This document shows, piece by piece, positions 8,584 to 48,382 of a DNA stretch of 64,000 nucleotides; within the stretch, counting starts at the first letter, position 1, and each line of letters starts with the position of its first letter. The stretch lies in contig NZ_KE383991.1 of NCBI RefSeq assembly GCF_000423225.1, positions 444,217 to 508,216 on the forward strand, in the 5' to 3' direction. Source of the stretch: Kaistia adipata DSM 17808. Its GTDB lineage: Bacteria; Pseudomonadota; Alphaproteobacteria; Rhizobiales; Kaistiaceae. The translations under genes were made by a program, and so were the position numbers. Under the pieces are notes generated by a model. That model was not told the origin of the DNA. It worked only from the letters and a program-made list of their open reading frames with translations, and made no database searches.

Positions 8584-9424
8584 GGTCTGGCCTCAATTGA
8601 GCCAGTAGGCGCGGATTGCGGCCAGGGGCACGCCGGAGAGGTAGTTCCTGGTCAGCTTGTCGTATCGGGTAGCGACGCGGCGGAAGTCCTTGAGTCTGCA
8701 CCACATGCGTTCGACGCGGTTTCGATCCTTGTAGGCGATGGTGTCGTAAGGGATGGGTTCCCGTCGCGAAGCGGTGGACGCGATCACTGCCTCTGTGCTC
8801 TGGGCGGCCAGGCGCCGCCTGAGGTGGTTGGCGTCATAGCCTTTGTCGGCCAACAACAGCCGGATCGGCCCTGCCGCCTGGATCAGCGCCTCCGCCATGC
8901 TGATATCGTTGATATTCCCGGCGCTGAGCAGGAGGACGCACGGCCGGCCACGGTCGTCCACCAACTCGTGAACCTTGGTGCTCCGCCCTCCACGCGAGCG
9001 GCCTATGGCGTGGGCGAAGGCCCCCCCTTTTGCGCCTGCGGCGGAGCGATGCGCCTTGACGTGGGTGGCGTCGATCGCCGCGCCGTCGAAGATGCCGCTG
9101 TGCCCGGTCAGCGCTTCGAACATCCGCAACCAGAGCCCCTGTCGGCTCCAGCGATTGAAGCGGTTGTAGACCGTCGTGTACGGGCCAAACTCCGATGGAC
9201 AGGCGCCATCGGGATCCGCTCTTCAGCATATGGACGATGCCCGAGATCACGCGCCGGTCGTCAACACGATGAGCGCCCTTGCGCCCACGCGGCAGCAAGG
9301 GCTCGATCCGACTCCACTCATCGTCACTAAGCCACTGAACCTGCTTCGTCATATTCAAGGCTCCCTTCCAGAAGCCTTGAATCAGAAATACTCCTGCGTC
9401 GCCAGACCTTATTGAGTACCGACC
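8584..9424 (-). mobile_element. IS5-family insertion sequence, IS427-like (about 841 bp)
   Basis: The element holds one broken transposase gene. Its ends are imperfect inverted repeats: the left end starts GGTCTGGCCTCAAT and the right end, read inward, GGTCGGTACTCAAT (12 of 18 positions match). The tetranucleotide CTAG flanks both ends (8580-8583 and 9425-9428), which fits the CTAG/TNA target preference and duplication of this group. The length is typical. It lies 58 bases beyond the last gene of the lsrRKG arm, so it may mark the edge of a mobile or rearranged block. Confidence 0.8.
8593..9352 (-). pseudogene. IS5-family DDE transposase, disrupted by frameshift
   Basis: The N-terminal part starts at ATG 9352 (MTKQVQWLSDDEWSRIEPLL) and loses frame at 9202/9203; the C-terminal part continues to 8593. 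If two bases are restored after the TGG-CGC codons, the text becomes W-R-D-C-P-S-E-F-G-P-Y-T-T-V-Y, the usual family sequence, so a 2-nt deletion is the simplest explanation. The catalytic residues survive: IDATHVKAH (first D), LLADKGYD (second D), and Y-x2-R-x3-E-x6-K in YKDRNRVERMWCRLK. The spot lacks the A- or T-rich slippery run used for programmed shifting in this group, so I read it as decay. The element can probably only move with help in trans. Confidence 0.8.
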
Positions 9425-42205: not shown

Positions 42206-43270
42206 ATGAACAAGCATGTCGGCGCCGATATCGACCCGAGGAACCGGCCGACGGTTTTCCGGCAGCCCGGTTCGCTGATGTATGCCGACAATTGTCGCGA
42301 CCTTCAGATCGCCGCCGGCCGTGGCGAAGTGGAGCTTCGAGCCTGGACGCGTGGCAGCTATCCTGGCACGTCGCTGGGGGAGCGGCTGCCCGGCATCTGC
42401 ACCACCGGTTTCTGGGATGCGAAGTTCCAGCAGAACTGGGGCCTGAAGCGCCACTGCAACGAGGGCTTCAAGATCGCGTTCCTGTCCCGGGGCAGCCTGA
42501 GGCTCATTGTCGACGACACCGAATACGAACTTCAGCAGGGCCAGTTCATCGTCATCCGGCCCTGGCAGCTGCACTCGATCGGCGAGCCCGTGGTCGGCCC
42601 CAGTCGCCTGCTCTGGCTGATCCTCGACGCCGGCCTCCGTCGCCCAAACGAAAGCTGGAGCTGGCCGGAATGGATGGTGTTCTCCGATGAGGAAGCAACG
42701 ACGCTCGGCAAGATCCTGACCCAGAACAACCAGCCCGTCTGGGACGGCAACAGCGAGCTCGGCAACGCCTTCGAGGCCATCGCGTCGATCCTTTCCAGCC
42801 GCACGCCGGAGACCGGCGAGACCCGGCTCAAGGTGGCCCTCAACACCGTCATGCTCGCCCTGATCGATCGCATGCTGGAGCAGGTGCCGGCGCTCGATCC
42901 CAATCTGTCGACGGCCCAGAACACCGTTTCGATCTTCCTCCGTCGCCTGCCGGCCCGCTCCGAAGAAGACTGGACGCTCGAACTGATGGCCGAGGAATGC
43001 GGCCTGTCGCGGACGCGCTTCGCCGACTATTGCAAGCTCCTGACCAACATGAGCCCGTTGCAGTTCCTCCAGCATCTCCGGCTCGAGCGGGCGTCGGTCA
43101 TGCTGCGCGATGCCAAGCGCCCCAGCATCACCGACATCGCGATGGCCTGCGGGTTCAATTCCAGCCAGTACTTCTCCTATGCGTTCCGCAAGCGCTATGG
43201 CTGCACGCCCAGGGCGCTGGCGGCGCAACAATCCGACAGCGGATCGCCGCGTGTCTCGGCCACGGCCTAG
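42206..43270 (+). CDS. AraC-family transcriptional regulator
   Basis: 354 residues. The N-terminal part holds a cupin-like sensing region (GFKIAFLSRGSLRLIVDDTEY, then EYELQQGQFIVIRPWQLHSI). The C-terminal part has two HTHs: LELMAEECGLSRTRFADYCK and ITDIAMACGFNSSQYFSYAFRKRYGCTPRAL. It is divergent from the epimerase-CUT2 operon and most likely activates it in response to the imported sugar. GGGAGGGG precedes the ATG. Confidence 0.92.
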   Translation: MNKHVGADIDPRNRPTVFRQPGSLMYADNCRDLQIAAGRGEVELRAWTRGSYPGTSLGERLPGICTTGFWDAKFQQNWGLKRHCNEGFKIAFLSRGSLRLIVDDTEYELQQGQFIVIRPWQLHSIGEPVVGPSRLLWLILDAGLRRPNESWSWPEWMVFSDEEATTLGKILTQNNQPVWDGNSELGNAFEAIASILSSRTPETGETRLKVALNTVMLALIDRMLEQVPALDPNLSTAQNTVSIFLRRLPARSEEDWTLELMAEECGLSRTRFADYCKLLTNMSPLQFLQHLRLERASVMLRDAKRPSITDIAMACGFNSSQYFSYAFRKRYGCTPRALAAQQSDSGSPRVSATA

Positions 43271-43298
43271 TTCTGATGGCGGCTGGTCGAAACGCGGC

Positions 43299-44840
43299 AT
43301 GATCCAGCAACTCGGACGGATCCTGGAAAGCCCGCTCAAGCGGATCGGCATCCTGTGCCTGCTGCTGGTCGCCGCGGCCGGCGCCCTCGCGGTATTCCAG
43401 CGACACGCCCTCGTGACCGAACTCGAGCAAGAGAGCGCTGTCCTGCAGCGGCTCGTTTCACAGCGCGCGGACCAGCATGACGCGCATCTGACGGCGCTGT
43501 CGGCCATCGCGGTCGCCGCGCAGGGAGCGAGGAACGACCTCTTCCTCGATGTCGCGGCCACCATTTCGCGCTTCTATCCGCGCATCGACGAGGTGCAGCT
43601 CGTTCCATTCGATGCGCAGGACCGGACGATCGGCACCGAACCGCTCTCGCCGGAGACGACGGATCTCATCCGCTCGGCCGCGCAGGCATCCAAGGGACAG
43701 ATCACCCTCCTGCCCCACCCTGACAAGCCGCACCACTATGGAATGGTGAAGCGCAGCCCGAATTCGGACGCCGCGCGCTACGGGCTGATGCTCGGCATCG
43801 ATGCGCGGAAACTACTGGGCGAGGCAACGCCATACTGGTCCCGACCCGGCGTTTCGCTCGGCCTGTCGCTGCCGGACGGGCATTCCCTCCTGAGCGAGGG
43901 CGGAACTCCGACGGAGGCGATCCGGCTGTCCAAGACGCTCGGCAGCGCCTCCCAGCCGCTGGTCCTGAATACCGGAATTCGGATCGGCCTCGCCGACCTC
44001 CTTCCATGGCTCCCGACGATCCTGGTGCTCGCCGCCGTTGCTCTCGGCTATCTCGCCCTGATGGCCGCGCTTCGTCAGCGCATGCGGACGAGCGCCGCGA
44101 TCGAGCAGGCCCGCCTCAGTGCGCTGGAGACGCGCCTCGCCCACGCCTCGCGCGTCAATGCGCTGGGCGAAATGGCCAGCGGCCTGGCGCATGAGCTGAC
44201 GCAGCCGCTCACGGCGATCCTGGCCCAGGCCCAGGCGGGACGACGCATCCTCGGCCAGGGAGAAACGGCCGCGCTCGCGCCGGTGCTCGACGACACCGTC
44301 GCCCAGGCGCGCCGCGCCTCCGACATCCTGAAGCGCTTCCGAAACTGGTCTCGCCCGCAGCGCGCGCCGACGGTGCCGATCGACCTGCGCGACACCCTGC
44401 GCAACGTGCACGCCCTACTCGCTGCGGATGCCGCCGCCCATGGCGTTCAGCTCGCCTTCGAAACGCCTGACGCGCCGGCTCTCGTCAGCGCCGACCCCGT
44501 CGAGATGGAACAGGTCGCGTTCAACCTCCTGCGCAACGCAATCGAGGCGACGAGCGGTTCGGACGGCTCAGGGCGCGTCTCCATTTCCCTGAATCCGAAT
44601 GGAAGCCAGATCGTGCTGGAAATCGCCGACAACGGACCCGGCGTGCCGGAAGACCTGCGTCCGCGCCTGTTCACCCCCTTCACGACGACCCGCGCCGACG
44701 GCACCGGCCTCGGCCTGGCGCTGAGCCAACGTCTGGTCGAACGCGCCGGAGGAGAAATCACATTGGTCGAGCAAGGCCCCGGTGCGACGTTCCGCGTCGT
44801 GCTGCCACGCCACGACGGCCGACCGGAGTCGATGCCATGA
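43299..44840 (+). CDS. Membrane sensor histidine kinase
   Basis: 513 residues from ATG 43299; the frame is open upstream through the end of the AraC gene but that part is not protein-like. TM1 at about 15-33, a ~200-residue periplasmic sensor, TM2 at about 236-257, then a dimerisation helix with phospho-acceptor H298 in LGEMASGLAHELTQPLTAI, and an HATPase domain (NLLRNAIEA, EIADNGPGVPE, PFTTTRADGTGLGLALSQ). The kinase core is FixL/DctB-like. It overlaps the response regulator by four bases. The periplasmic sensor plus the secreted HbpS-like protein two genes on suggests extracytoplasmic sensing. Confidence 0.9.
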   Translation: MIQQLGRILESPLKRIGILCLLLVAAAGALAVFQRHALVTELEQESAVLQRLVSQRADQHDAHLTALSAIAVAAQGARNDLFLDVAATISRFYPRIDEVQLVPFDAQDRTIGTEPLSPETTDLIRSAAQASKGQITLLPHPDKPHHYGMVKRSPNSDAARYGLMLGIDARKLLGEATPYWSRPGVSLGLSLPDGHSLLSEGGTPTEAIRLSKTLGSASQPLVLNTGIRIGLADLLPWLPTILVLAAVALGYLALMAALRQRMRTSAAIEQARLSALETRLAHASRVNALGEMASGLAHELTQPLTAILAQAQAGRRILGQGETAALAPVLDDTVAQARRASDILKRFRNWSRPQRAPTVPIDLRDTLRNVHALLAADAAAHGVQLAFETPDAPALVSADPVEMEQVAFNLLRNAIEATSGSDGSGRVSISLNPNGSQIVLEIADNGPGVPEDLRPRLFTPFTTTRADGTGLGLALSQRLVERAGGEITLVEQGPGATFRVVLPRHDGRPESMP

Positions 44841-45445
44841 ACCGCCCCGTCTACCTGGTCGATGACGACGAGGCCGTGCGCCGCGCGCTTGGGCTGCTTC
44901 TGTCCACGGTCGGCATCGAGGTCGTGAGCTTCGCCGATCCGCAGGCATTCCTGGCCCAGGTTCCGAAACTGGATCCCGGCTGCCTGGTCCTCGACATCCG
45001 CATGCCGGTCATTTCCGGACTGAAGCTGCAGGAACAGCTCGCAGCTCGCGGAATCGATTGGCCGACCATCGTCATTTCGGGCCATGGCGACATCGAGGCC
45101 TGCCGCCGGGCCTTCCGCAACGGGGCGATCGACTTCCTGTCGAAGCCAGTCGACGAGCAGGACCTGATCGACGCCATCCAGAAGGGTCAGGACGCGCTGG
45201 AGCGCGCCTTGCGCCTGCGGGCCGAGAAAGCCGAAACGCAGGCCCTGCTCGCCGGCCTGACACCGCGCGAACGCGAAGTGCTCGGCCGCATCACGGAAGG
45301 CTTCACCACGCGGGAGATCGCCGAGGGCCTCGGCCTGTCGCCGCGCACCGTCGAGAGCCACCGTGCCGCCATCGGCGCCAAGCTCGGCACCACCTCGCAG
45401 GCCGAGATGACGCGGCTATGGCTCGAAGGGCGCGAGGATCCGTAG
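44837..45445 (+). CDS. FixJ/NarL-type response regulator
   Basis: 202 residues. The receiver domain has the acidic DDD at 9-11, phospho-acceptor D53 (LDIRMP), S81 in VISGHGD and K103 in LSKPVD. The LuxR-type HTH at about 138-195 includes LTPREREVLGRITEGFTTRE and SPRTVESHRAAI. It is phosphorylated by the kinase encoded just upstream (ATGA overlap) and probably controls transcription of the HbpS-like gene and other targets. Confidence 0.93.
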   Translation: MNRPVYLVDDDEAVRRALGLLLSTVGIEVVSFADPQAFLAQVPKLDPGCLVLDIRMPVISGLKLQEQLAARGIDWPTIVISGHGDIEACRRAFRNGAIDFLSKPVDEQDLIDAIQKGQDALERALRLRAEKAETQALLAGLTPREREVLGRITEGFTTREIAEGLGLSPRTVESHRAAIGAKLGTTSQAEMTRLWLEGREDP

Positions 45446-45532
45446 AACTACCGAGGCAACCGCAAGCCCTACGAATGCCGCGCTGCGCGGGATCGATCTA
45501 GTTTCCTTCCATCCGCTGGAAAGGAGATCATC

Positions 45533-46018
45533 TTGATCCGCAAGCTCGTTTTCGCAACCGCCCTGCTCGCTCCGCTTGCCGCAACGGCGCAGGAACTGCC
45601 GACCGCCCCCTACCTGCCGCTCGACATGGCAGCCAAGGCGGCCGACGCCGCGCTCAAGGCCTGCGCCGCCGAAGGCCACAATGTCAGCGTCGCCATCGTG
45701 GCCCGCGACGGCGCGACCAAGGTGCTGCTGAAGGCCGATAATTCCGGCCCGCATACCGGGGCGAGCGCCACCGGCAAGGCCTTCACGGCCGCCGCGATGG
45801 GCCGCGACACGGCCGGGCTCGCCGAGTTCATCGCCGGCAAGCCCGCCAATGACGGCCTGCGCGACATGGATACTCGCATGGTGATCCAGGGCGGCGGCCT
45901 GCCGGTCAAGTTTGGCAAGGCGGTGGTCGGCGGCATCGGCGTCGGCGGCGCCCCCTCGGGCGACATCGACGCCAGCTGCGCGGCAGCCGGCCTCAAGGCA
46001 ATCGGCGCGGCCGAGTAG
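45533..46018 (+). CDS. Secreted HbpS/GlcG-type (DUF336) protein
   Basis: 161 residues. The start is TTG 45533, supported by AAGGAG six bases upstream; no ATG fits. The signal peptide (RKLVFATALLAPLAATAQ) directs it to the periplasm. The mature domain is the compact GlcG/HbpS fold: AADAALKACAAEGHNVSVAIV, HTGASATGKAFTAAAMG and GGIGVGGAPSGDIDASCAAAGL. In Streptomyces, HbpS binds haem and modulates the sensor kinase SenS; GlcG relatives sit in glycolate operons. It follows a two-component pair here, so an accessory sensing role is a reasonable inference. A clear terminator follows. Confidence 0.88.
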   Translation: MIRKLVFATALLAPLAATAQELPTAPYLPLDMAAKAADAALKACAAEGHNVSVAIVARDGATKVLLKADNSGPHTGASATGKAFTAAAMGRDTAGLAEFIAGKPANDGLRDMDTRMVIQGGGLPVKFGKAVVGGIGVGGAPSGDIDASCAAAGLKAIGAAE

Positions 46019-46330
46019 GCCCGCCAAGACTGTGATGCGGCCCGCCCGCGGGCCGCATTTCCATCGACGCGATGCCGCGCCGGGACGACTTCCGACAATC
46101 GGCGCGGCCGATCGAGACAAGTTCGCCCGCATCGAACCGGGCGCATCGCGCCCAAAATCCCTTTGTTCGAAAAACAAATCTCCAATCAATCAACGGTATC
46201 GCCAAATCAAAATATCGTCGATATGAATATTTCATTTCGACCACACCTAGTTCAAATATCTAACTATTGACAATTTTATTCAATTTCCCACCCATGACAC
46301 ACCTCCTGAGCACAGATCAGAGGTGAAATT
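46019..46330. other. Intergenic region with an AT-rich leader ahead of the papain-fold gene
   Basis: The left third holds the hairpin terminator of the HbpS-like gene. From about 46160 the composition turns markedly AT-rich against a very GC-rich background (runs such as AAAAACAAATC, AATCAAAATATCG, TATGAATATTTC). A TTGACA box at 46267-46272 lies 59 bases before the ATG, but no good -10 follows at 16-18 bases. The AT stretch could be an UP-element, a silencer-binding (MucR/H-NS-like) region or recently acquired DNA. No gene is seen. Confidence 0.5.
46035..46058 (+). terminator. Terminator after the HbpS-like gene
   Basis: Perfect 9-bp inverted repeat ATGCGGCCC / GGGCCGCAT with a 6-base loop, ending in ATTTCC, 16 bases past the stop. 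It closes the kinase - regulator - HbpS unit. Confidence 0.6.
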
Positions 46331-47284
46331 ATGAATCATTTTCCATATTTCGGCTCCAGCCCCTATTGCTACTCTAATTCATTCGCCATGATGCTTGGCG
46401 ACGCCGCGCCTGCCACGGCGGTGATCGAGTTTGCAACCGGCAGTCCCTTCGGGATGCAGCTCGTCGGCGGCACCCTACCCTTCTTCGATCCCTATGGCTG
46501 GACACCCGAAACCGGGTTCGACACCGCTCTCGAAACCATGGGCTGGGCCTCGACCGTAACGAAGGGCGGGAACGCGCCCGAAGCGCTGGGGCGGCTCCGG
46601 ACCGCTCTCGCAAGTGGCCCGGTCTGGATCGGTCCCGTCGAGATGGGCTGGCTCCGGCATCAACCGGGCAAGGACGGCCCGATCGCCGCGGATCACTACG
46701 TCGTCGTGCTCGCCGTCGAGGGCGGCTGGGTCTGGATGCACGACCCGGAAGGCCATCCTTTCGCCTGCCTGCCGCTCGAAGACTTCATGGAAGCCTGGCG
46801 AGCGGAGACGCTCGACTATGGCGAGCCCTACACCATGCGGACCGGCTTCCGACGCCTGCGCTCGGTTGCCGAGGAGGACATGATCCGAGCCTCGCTCGAT
46901 GCGTCCATGCGCCTGTTGTCGATGGAATGCGAACACCATCTGCCGGAAGGCACCCTCGGCAACGAGGCGGCCGCCAACACCCTCGCGGACAGGATCGAGA
47001 AGGGCTGTGACGATGGCCTTCGCGGCCACCTGATCCAGTTCGCCGTCCGCGTCGGCGCCAGGCGGCTCGCCGACGCGGCGACATGCCTCGCGCGGATCGG
47101 CGCCGTCCGCGCCGCGCGGATCGCTTCCGATCAGGCTCAGCTGGTGGGCGCGCTGCAGTATCTTCTGACGACGGGCCGGGATGCCGAAGCCGCCGCCCGA
47201 CTGAGAAGACTGGCACCGAGCTACGGCCAGCTCCACGCCGCGTTGCGGGAAGAGCAACCGGCTTTGCGAACCGTGTCGACATGA
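46331..47284 (+). CDS. Papain-fold (BtrH_N / C39-like) protein of unknown role
   Basis: 317 residues. GAGGT six bases before the ATG fixes the start. The N-terminal half looks like a papain-fold domain: C13 in SPYCYSNSFAMMLGD, H122 in AADHYVVVLAVEGG and D138 in WMHDPEG form a plausible Cys-His-Asp triad, as in BtrH_N acyltransferases and C39-like peptidases. The C-terminal half (about 170-317) is helical, without motifs I recognise. No signal peptide or membrane segment is seen, so it should be cytoplasmic. It is monocistronic, behind an AT-rich leader. It could be a transacylase, amidase or peptidase; I cannot assign substrate or pathway. Confidence 0.75.
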   Translation: MNHFPYFGSSPYCYSNSFAMMLGDAAPATAVIEFATGSPFGMQLVGGTLPFFDPYGWTPETGFDTALETMGWASTVTKGGNAPEALGRLRTALASGPVWIGPVEMGWLRHQPGKDGPIAADHYVVVLAVEGGWVWMHDPEGHPFACLPLEDFMEAWRAETLDYGEPYTMRTGFRRLRSVAEEDMIRASLDASMRLLSMECEHHLPEGTLGNEAAANTLADRIEKGCDDGLRGHLIQFAVRVGARRLADAATCLARIGAVRAARIASDQAQLVGALQYLLTTGRDAEAAARLRRLAPSYGQLHAALREEQPALRTVST

Positions 47285-47368
47285 CCATTGACGGCCCGCC
47301 GGCCGAAGGCGCGATGAGCCCATGGTGATCAGGCAGGGCGATCCTGCGCCGTCCTGCCATTCGTTCGG

Positions 47369-47393
47369 CCGCGAACCGGGAGCCGGTTCGCGG
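47369..47393. terminator. Bidirectional terminator hairpin after dhaK
   Basis: Perfect 11-bp inverted repeat CCGCGAACCGG / CCGGTTCGCGG with a 3-base loop, 5 bases past the dhaK stop (minus) and 84 bases past the facing papain-fold gene. No T-run on either side, but the stem is very strong. Confidence 0.6.
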
Positions 47394-47398
47394 TTGAG

Positions 47399-48382
47399 CT
47401 ACCAGGTCAGGGCCGAGGTGCGCACCGGCGCATCCCAGAGCGCCGCCAGCTCGTCGTCCAGGACCGTCACGGTCAGCGAGCAGCCTGCCATTTCGAGAGA
47501 GGTGACATAGCTGCCGACCAGGCTGCGCGCAGCCTCAAGCCCCTCGGCCTGCAGGCGACGGCGCGCCGCGTTGTACACGAGATACAACTCGACCGACGGC
47601 GTGCCGCCGAAGCCGTTGACGAACAGCAGGCAGCGCGCACCCGCGGCAGGTCGGAGATCCGCCAGGATCGCATCCATCAGCTCGTTGACGATGGCATCGG
47701 CCGGCGCCATCGGCCCCCGCCGACGGCCGGGCTCGCCATGAATGCCCACGCCGATCTCGATCTCGTTTTCGGCCAGCTGGAACGTGGGCGTACCCGCGGC
47801 CGGCACCGTGCAGGAGCTCAGCGCCACACCCATCGAGCGCGTGGCCGCATTGACCCGCTCGCCCAACGCGACGAGCGTGTCCAGATCTGCACCGCGCTCG
47901 GCGGCGGCGCCGAGGATCTTCTCGACCACCAGCGTTCCCGCCACGCCGCGCCGGCCGATGGTATAGGCAGAATTGTCGACCGCGACGTCGTCGTCGACGA
48001 GAACCCGCGCGACGGGCCCGGAGGCCATCTCCGCCGCCATCTCGAAGTTCATCACGTCGCCTTCGTAGTTCTTGACGATCAGCAGGGTGCCGACATCGCT
48101 GCCGACCGCCTCGATCGCGGCCAGGATGCGATCCGGCGTCGGCGAGGTGAAGATTGCGCCCGGCACCGCGGCATCGAGCATGCCCTGCCCCACGAAGCCC
48201 GCATGCAGCGGCTCGTGACCGGAACCGCCGCCGGAGACCAGCGCGACCTTTCCGGGCGTGACGTTCCGACGTCGCACATAGCGGCGTTCGGCATCCATCT
48301 CGATCAGGTCGGCATGCGCCGCGGCGAAGCCGTCCAGGCTCTCATCCAGCACGTTCGCGACGTCGTTGATCAGCTTCTTCAT
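47399..48382 (-). CDS. dhaK: PTS-dependent dihydroxyacetone kinase, subunit DhaK
   Basis: 327 residues from ATG 48382, with GAGGGGG upstream. Substrate residues are present: GGGSGHEP with H56, NYEGDVMNFEMA with D109 and GVGIHGEPG with H215, the His that binds dihydroxyacetone covalently as a hemiaminal. It presents the triose (or a related short ketose) to DhaL-ATP... in the PTS type, DhaL carries a permanently bound nucleotide recharged by DhaM. It is the last gene of the operon, 20 bases after the small HTH-like gene, and unlike enteric operons is separated from dhaL by four genes. Confidence 0.92.
   Translation of the reverse strand: MKKLINDVANVLDESLDGFAAAHADLIEMDAERRYVRRRNVTPGKVALVSGGGSGHEPLHAGFVGQGMLDAAVPGAIFTSPTPDRILAAIEAVGSDVGTLLIVKNYEGDVMNFEMAAEMASGPVARVLVDDDVAVDNSAYTIGRRGVAGTLVVEKILGAAAERGADLDTLVALGERVNAATRSMGVALSSCTVPAAGTPTFQLAENEIEIGVGIHGEPGRRRGPMAPADAIVNELMDAILADLRPAAGARCLLFVNGFGGTPSVELYLVYNAARRRLQAEGLEAARSLVGSYVTSLEMAGCSLTVTVLDDELAALWDAPVRTSALTW

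Follow-up and report, generated by a model that had tools for sequence, protein, structure and literature searches.

An unnamed gene family with a predicted CtaG/CcbD/AziU fold that appears to move among soil bacteria along with a promoter and leader hairpin of its own

The open reading frame at 46331-47284 (+) of the window, the 64,000-nucleotide stretch of Kaistia adipata DSM 17808 analysed here, encodes a protein of 317 amino acids. It has an ATG start with GAGGTG ahead of it, and the product is predicted to comprise a papain-like domain (residues ~1-177) and a helical domain (~178-317). In Pfam and NCBIfam scans the window protein stayed under every cut-off and its relatives gave weak matches only. 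A dN/dS of 0.10-0.19 in six pairs of relatives (the window copy is in none of these pairs) speaks for a coding frame and indicates purifying selection. No signal peptide is apparent by eye and the product is probably a cytosolic enzyme. The initial annotation described the frame as lying behind an AT-rich island without biosynthetic or export neighbours. The frame and the island were both borne out (the 171 bases upstream are 36% GC) and the description of the neighbours holds adjacent to the gene, where an HbpS-like gene lies upstream and a Dak1 kinase gene downstream.

The gene sits in a segment (43231-47386) that has no substantial DNA match in 13 congeners among the matches listed (E to ~8e-24). 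It contains the greater part of a sensor kinase gene together with a response regulator, the HbpS-like protein and the papain-fold gene. It is bounded by the ends of two syntenic blocks, separate from each other and, in the nearest congener (G003), placed on different contigs. Synteny ends at 47387-47402, just past the gene, in the five congeners examined, and 43.23-46.10 kb has no substantial match in the 13 congeners among the matches listed; short matches exist over the response regulator (up to 266 bp at 66-69%). Because synteny stops past the gene and the 43.23-46.10 kb stretch lacks a substantial congener match, the segment looks acquired, with uncertain borders. At 43110-46018 the sensor kinase and response regulator (both assigned by eye) and the HbpS-like gene (PF03928) follow in a row, an order that presumably recalls SenS-SenR-HbpS. 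Elsewhere in the window, a frame at 8593-9129 resembles, by eye, a fragment of an IS5-type transposase.

An AlphaFold2 model built with 28 sequences (pLDDT 86.6, pTM 0.86) agrees with the papain-type fold for which structure prediction had been suggested as a check. In a VIA search with this model the whole-length matches were CtaG (Z 21.9, 281 residues), AziU2-U3 (20.1) and CcbD (19.7), and the next family, PeiR (Z 13.3), matched the N-terminal half only. That half also matched the C39 domains of PCAT1 and ComA at Z about 12-12.7, and the papain half matched the phytochelatin-synthase relative Alr0975 at Z 11.0. Foldseek gave 19 chains at E 1.5e-8 to 1.6e-4, all CtaG, CcbD or AziU2/U3, with AziU3/U2 in the top rows. 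The helical C-terminal half, initially left unexplained, is most simply read as the second domain of this fold: modelled alone (pLDDT 93.6), it found AziU3 first (Z 10.7, 131/140 residues) and CcbD at 9.8. Designed helical bundles reach Z 8.6-10.3 in the same search, near the AziU3 and CcbD values, and CtaG is absent among the best 50 matches listed for the isolated domain. In the full model pLDDT drops below 50 at residues 54-58 and 117-119, though residues 53-60 are invariant in alignment A1.

The proposed Cys-His-Asp set proved to be correctly numbered and invariant in relatives. C13, the predicted nucleophile (codon 46367-46369, +), H122, the predicted general base (46694-46696, +), and D138, the predicted third triad residue (46742-46744, +), are conserved in 28/28 aligned sequences (window included) and in 21/21 of a wider set that includes copies at 20-27% identity. 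The PDB titles of CtaG (9qvj, 9quz, 9qvk and others) carry C11A, H128A and D144N, so that a Cys-His-Asp set is common to CtaG and the window protein, and the spacing of 16 between H122 and D138 equals that between H128 and D144 as numbered in those titles. C13/H122/D138 are probably equivalent to C11/H128/D144 of CtaG, a superposition that we infer.

CtaG, from closthioamide biosynthesis, shares the whole fold with the window protein over the 281 residues (rmsd 4.0) at 10% identity. PMC6772006 proposes that CtaG passes an acyl group from the carrier CtaH to CtaE in its cluster; these partners have no counterpart adjoining the window gene. CcbD and LmbD, the condensing enzymes of celesticetin and lincomycin (7yn1, 7yn2, 9dkr, 9dks), also share the whole fold (291 residues at the Z of 19.7) and have the catalytic Cys and His in common with the window protein at 13% identity. 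Their third catalytic residue is Glu according to PMC12945683, whereas the window protein has Asp, and neither a lincosamide cluster nor a carrier protein adjoins the window gene. That paper describes CcbD as a ping-pong enzyme with a Cys triad that uses an acyl group bound to a carrier, with an amino sugar as the acceptor. AziU3 and AziU2 (azinomycin; 7wuw, 8gs1) share the whole fold at Z 19.9-20.1, but PMC12559475 has them forming an aziridine by sulfate displacement, not by acyl transfer. Their likeness in sequence is a weak profile match with A1 only. When profile A1 was searched against PDB sequences, AziU3/Azi29 alone came below E 0.1 (1.2e-4, residues 81-157), and this link is absent with the broader profile A3. 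The window protein thus has the papain-like N-terminal and helical C-terminal domains of the group in its predicted model and the conserved Cys-His-Asp/Glu set by sequence invariance, and the antibiotic biosynthetic cluster with carrier proteins is missing next to its gene. Among the open-access papers listed, judged by title and the start of the abstract, we found none on the stand-alone family.

Membership of a BtrH_N/C39-like family, as offered in the initial annotation, fell short. BtrH_N (PF14399, the family of butirosin BtrH) is related to C39 according to PMC10318531. The window protein had no BtrH_N match up to E 10 and its own genome had none. Weak profile likeness was seen in 9/21 family members at E up to 0.1 (best 0.0047), and the bit scores reported for members, the window protein having none, all lie under the Pfam gathering cut-off of 29.7 bits. 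For Peptidase C39 (PF03412) the window protein scored 11.2 bits (E 0.33) against a cut-off of 22 bits, and 10/21 members matched at E up to 0.1 (best 6.5e-4). Peptidase C39 domains are typically fused to an ABC exporter and act on substrates with a double-glycine leader; there is no exporter domain within the 317 residues and the flanking genes are the HbpS-like and Dak1 genes. Two further likenesses were set aside. A phmmer search of the PDB gave 269 sequences up to E 10, of which the best 60 listed were all antibody-like (best nanobody match E 1.1e-5, residues 75-120); these matches of ~40 residues were rejected as chance because no such fold occurs among the matches to the model and profile searches do not repeat them. 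The NCBIfam scan of 21 members gave nothing for the window protein and weak rows only for the others, the best being the aminoglycoside phosphotransferase APH(6) (E 0.0029 in 2 members), which we took as chance.

The AT-rich stretch ahead of the gene (46160-46330) stands at 36% GC, whereas the window averages 66% (sd 4.8, 170-base windows). Only 3/6383 sliding windows are as low, these being the stretch itself, and all windows below 45% GC start at 46111-46241. Across 45 loci, a count that includes near-identical strains, the 170 bases upstream of the family gene fall within the most AT-rich 5% of their locus in 21/45 and within the top 1% in 10/45. Reading the stretch as silenced or newly acquired DNA is right in part: acquisition is probable, with the gene in 0/13 congeners, but the last 64 bases are a conserved promoter-hairpin. 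In the window this element comprises a candidate promoter core at 46267-46297 (+), with TTGACA at 46267-46272, an AT-rich spacer and a putative -10-like hexamer, followed by a leader hairpin CACCTC...GAGGTG at 46300-46325 (+) whose 3' arm overlaps the ribosome-binding site (-11.2 kcal/mol; 12/200 shuffles fold at least as well). The remainder (46160-46266) lies outside the conserved element.

Among relatives the element spans ~64 bp, with TTGACA, an AT-rich spacer and a covarying hairpin over the ribosome-binding site. TTGACA lies 55-69 bases before the used start in 28/28 solo proteobacterial copies (the window, L002-L022, L034, L038-L040, L080 and L082). This count leaves out L079 and L081, near-identical strains that both have TTGACA, and L029 and L032, whose genes are already counted as L003 and L014. 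It also leaves out L030 and L031, where a MerR gene is linked and TTGACA is lacking for 110 bases before the enzyme gene. Nor was TTGACA found in the six actinobacterial copies L023-L028 or in L037, L066, L077 and L078. Mean pairwise identity is 67% over the 40 bases from TTGACA against 26% over the 40 bases before it; it is because of this jump that conservation is taken to begin at TTGACA, and the 80 bases preceding it are at background identity. A 19-base spacer leads to a TCTTGT-like hexamer, the presumptive -10. The 5' arm of the hairpin occupies element positions 33-38, its best complement lies 0-16 bases before the start (3-7 in 22/28), and the likely ribosome-binding site falls inside the 3' arm in most rows. 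Pairing averages 5.55/6, compared with 4.85 when arms are redealt (0/2000 reach the observed value) and 4.02 with shuffled regions (0/500), counts that are not probabilities, as the rows are related to each other. Pairs covary, the third one, for example, being C-G in 19 rows and T-A in 8. Single folds, computed for 12/28 copies, are modest: 10 form the hairpin (L009 in the centroid), L010 forms none and L003 folds differently, and only L002 and L013 had no shuffle equally stable.

A 30-base pattern of the element, allowing up to 3 mismatches, has a single site in 16/18 genomes or records (4 of the 18 being plasmid records, not whole genomes), zero sites in G000 and G1032, and 0/18 for the reversed control. 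With one site per genome or record in those 16/18, a regulon of close element matches finds no support. The window's element is among the more diverged copies and the pattern does not detect it. Rfam at its gathering threshold found no leader match in five loci. Because the element precedes 28/28 solo proteobacterial copies and is near-unique per genome, a dedicated promoter-leader appears to move with the gene. Other features were seen in the sequences of family loci. The actinobacterial copies L023, L024, L026 and L065 have a palindrome of the TTTT...GAAAA type a short way ahead of the start; in L077 and L078 the sequence there is CTGACACCGTGTCAGG, which resembles the dyad before the MerR gene of L037; and L014:1070-1169 is the RcsR1 small RNA (Rfam, 76.4 bits).

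The gene was called an orphan, which fits its genomic context and not its sequence, as relatives at 50-75% identity exist. A contig scan by patterns located 27 such loci, with alignments spanning almost the entire protein; they come from Hyphomicrobiales, Inquilinus, Geminicoccus, Phenylobacterium and Actinobacteria. Spread is patchy. The only carrier among 61 genomes of relatives is the window's own; 6/297 genomes of the window's order (own included, one weak at E 4.5e-4), 4/398 of the phylum (own included) and 13/345 of one actinobacterial class (7 strong, 6 at E 5e-6 to 6e-4) have the gene. It is present in Sinorhizobium meliloti 1021, on pSymB. Plasmid records with a match number 79, and in 71 of them the match covers 80% or more; 64 are Sinorhizobium and the rest include Pseudomonas and Streptomyces, with distant copies in the Bacillota Alkalihalophilus (32%) and Enterococcus (26%). 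The Enterococcus faecalis plasmid relative (L036:5581-6534) is annotated as DNA repair protein RadC and has weak C39/BtrH-like matches. Phage records gave no match, nor did peptide patterns in viral contigs. In a tree of 43 rows with 14 unresolved forks, the Pseudomonas plasmid copy groups with Aquamicrobium (98/83*) and the window falls in a starred group of four with these two and Devosia. Since 0/13 congeners carry the gene, it was probably acquired recently in the window's lineage, and the unnamed family appears, from these comparisons, to be mobile between soil bacteria together with its promoter and hairpin.

Neighbours were called by a home-made gene finder in the 45 loci (L012, L014, L027, L032 and L040 are outside this set). 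No partner gene is common to them beyond close relatives, the exception being a MerR-type gene 4-23 bp upstream on the same strand in 4/45 (L030, L031, L066 and L037). These four loci come from two phyla and lack TTGACA before the enzyme gene. L066, from an actinomycete, and L030, from the window's order, share 52% identity in both the MerR and the enzyme gene, while L037, on a Streptomyces plasmid, has another MerR type, whose GyrI-like small-molecule-binding domain scores 21.6 bits, under the 26-bit cut-off. Action of an L030-type MerR in trans on solo copies was not supported: among 13 solo-type genomes (window's included) 11 had partial DNA-binding matches and 2 none. On a Deinococcus deserti plasmid (L126:2959-4652) a related MerR gene (36%) shares 4 bases with a neighbouring transglutaminase-like gene; here too an enzyme of the papain superfamily accompanies a regulator of this kind. 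Homology of that enzyme to the family was not supported (hhalign probability 0.3%).

Most of the 45 loci have no recognised resistance gene adjoining the family gene. In pSDM007, a plasmid treated together with hph in PMC10581066, the family gene lies 172 bp before an AAC(2')-IIa-like gene, a kasugamycin acetyltransferase homologue (394 bits, cut-off 510). Upstream of the family gene come IS26, at about 0.7 kb, and aph genes, at 3.4-5 kb. In L069 a gene for a small kinase that matches CPT above cut-off follows the family gene after 10 bp. A nonribosomal peptide synthetase (NRPS) starts 1.1-1.9 kb downstream in two Nocardia loci. The close same-strand neighbour is dehydrogenase-like in L010 (by eye) and a tetrapyrrole methylase in L028. 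A candidate drug nucleotidyltransferase three genes downstream in L024, picked by eye, had no Pfam or NCBIfam match and was dropped.

The fold, the invariant C13-H122-D138 set, purifying selection, patchy spread and the promoter-hairpin are supported by sequence comparison and the predicted model; substrate, chemistry and regulation we infer. We tentatively propose, at somewhat less than an even chance, that the protein is a mobile Cys-His-Asp enzyme that transfers acyl groups or cleaves amides, and modifies an antibiotic-like compound. C13, activated by H122 and D138, would accept the acyl group of a thioester or amide and, like CcbD, hand it to an amine or water. The target would most likely be a small toxic compound, for example an amino-sugar or peptide antibiotic, and its inactivation would give the mobile gene a role in self-protection. 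By covering the ribosome-binding site, the hairpin would hold translation down until relieved by a signal, and in other lineages a MerR-type sensor would take control instead. This defence reading draws on (i) the whole-length fold match, the invariant triad and the chemistry of CcbD; (ii) the spread of the gene; and (iii) the pSDM007 locus, the MerR pairs and the L069 kinase. Against it, pSDM007 is one case on a mosaic plasmid, most loci have no adjoining resistance gene, the L010 and L028 neighbours are unrelated to defence, and residues 54-58 and 117-119 are modelled at low pLDDT. A bolder form, in which the amide-joining fold of producers has become a new class of mobile antibiotic-inactivating enzyme, a stand-alone one-kilobase defence cassette passed from one bacterium to another with its own promoter and a dedicated RNA hairpin that would sense drug or stalled ribosome and then free translation, we regard as rather unlikely.

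The matched characterised enzymes of the fold, CtaG, CcbD and AziU2/U3, are all biosynthetic. This and the NRPS near the two Nocardia copies speak against defence and for a displaced biosynthetic enzyme, one that would build an amide into a small secondary product from an acyl group bound to CoA or to a carrier protein and provided from another part of the genome. A solo cassette with its own promoter, found on unrelated plasmids and lacking a common partner in the 45 loci apart from the MerR pair, is hard to reconcile with that role, which has a minor but appreciable probability. The AziU3/U2 chemistry of sulfate displacement, likewise a point against the defence reading, raises the prospect of a non-acyl reaction, an elimination or substitution on a sulfated or otherwise activated small molecule. 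With A1 no PDB sequence except AziU3/Azi29 came below E 0.1, and AziU3/U2 head the Foldseek rows, but with the link missing for A3 and an invariant Cys-His-Asp set that suggests covalent acyl chemistry, such a reaction is very improbable.

Two other explanations start from the papain half. The matches of the N-terminal half to PeiR and to the PCAT1 and ComA C39 domains, together with the weak Peptidase_C39 profile matches in members, would suit a C39-like or pseudomurein-endoisopeptidase-like enzyme, a peptidase or amidase with a peptide or cell-wall substrate; the full-length matches point to the CtaG/CcbD/AziU group instead, and with a C39 score at half the cut-off, no transporter domain and no visible signal peptide we consider this quite unlikely. 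A part in thiol or general stress metabolism, such as the glutathione handling of phytochelatin synthase rather than antibiotic defence, would accord with the Alr0975 match and with the many hosts that are soil and root bacteria. That likeness is confined to the papain half, however, and a patchy, partly plasmid-borne spread points to an accessory trait, making a metabolic role improbable.

If the proposed self-protection function is true, a recently recognised biosynthetic fold would also be encoded by a mobile gene that is widespread among bacteria of soil and roots and has so far gone unannotated. The cis-element is conserved about as strongly as the gene and is near-unique per genome, which makes its regulation directly testable. 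The identity of the substrate would show whether catalogues of resistance genes miss a class.
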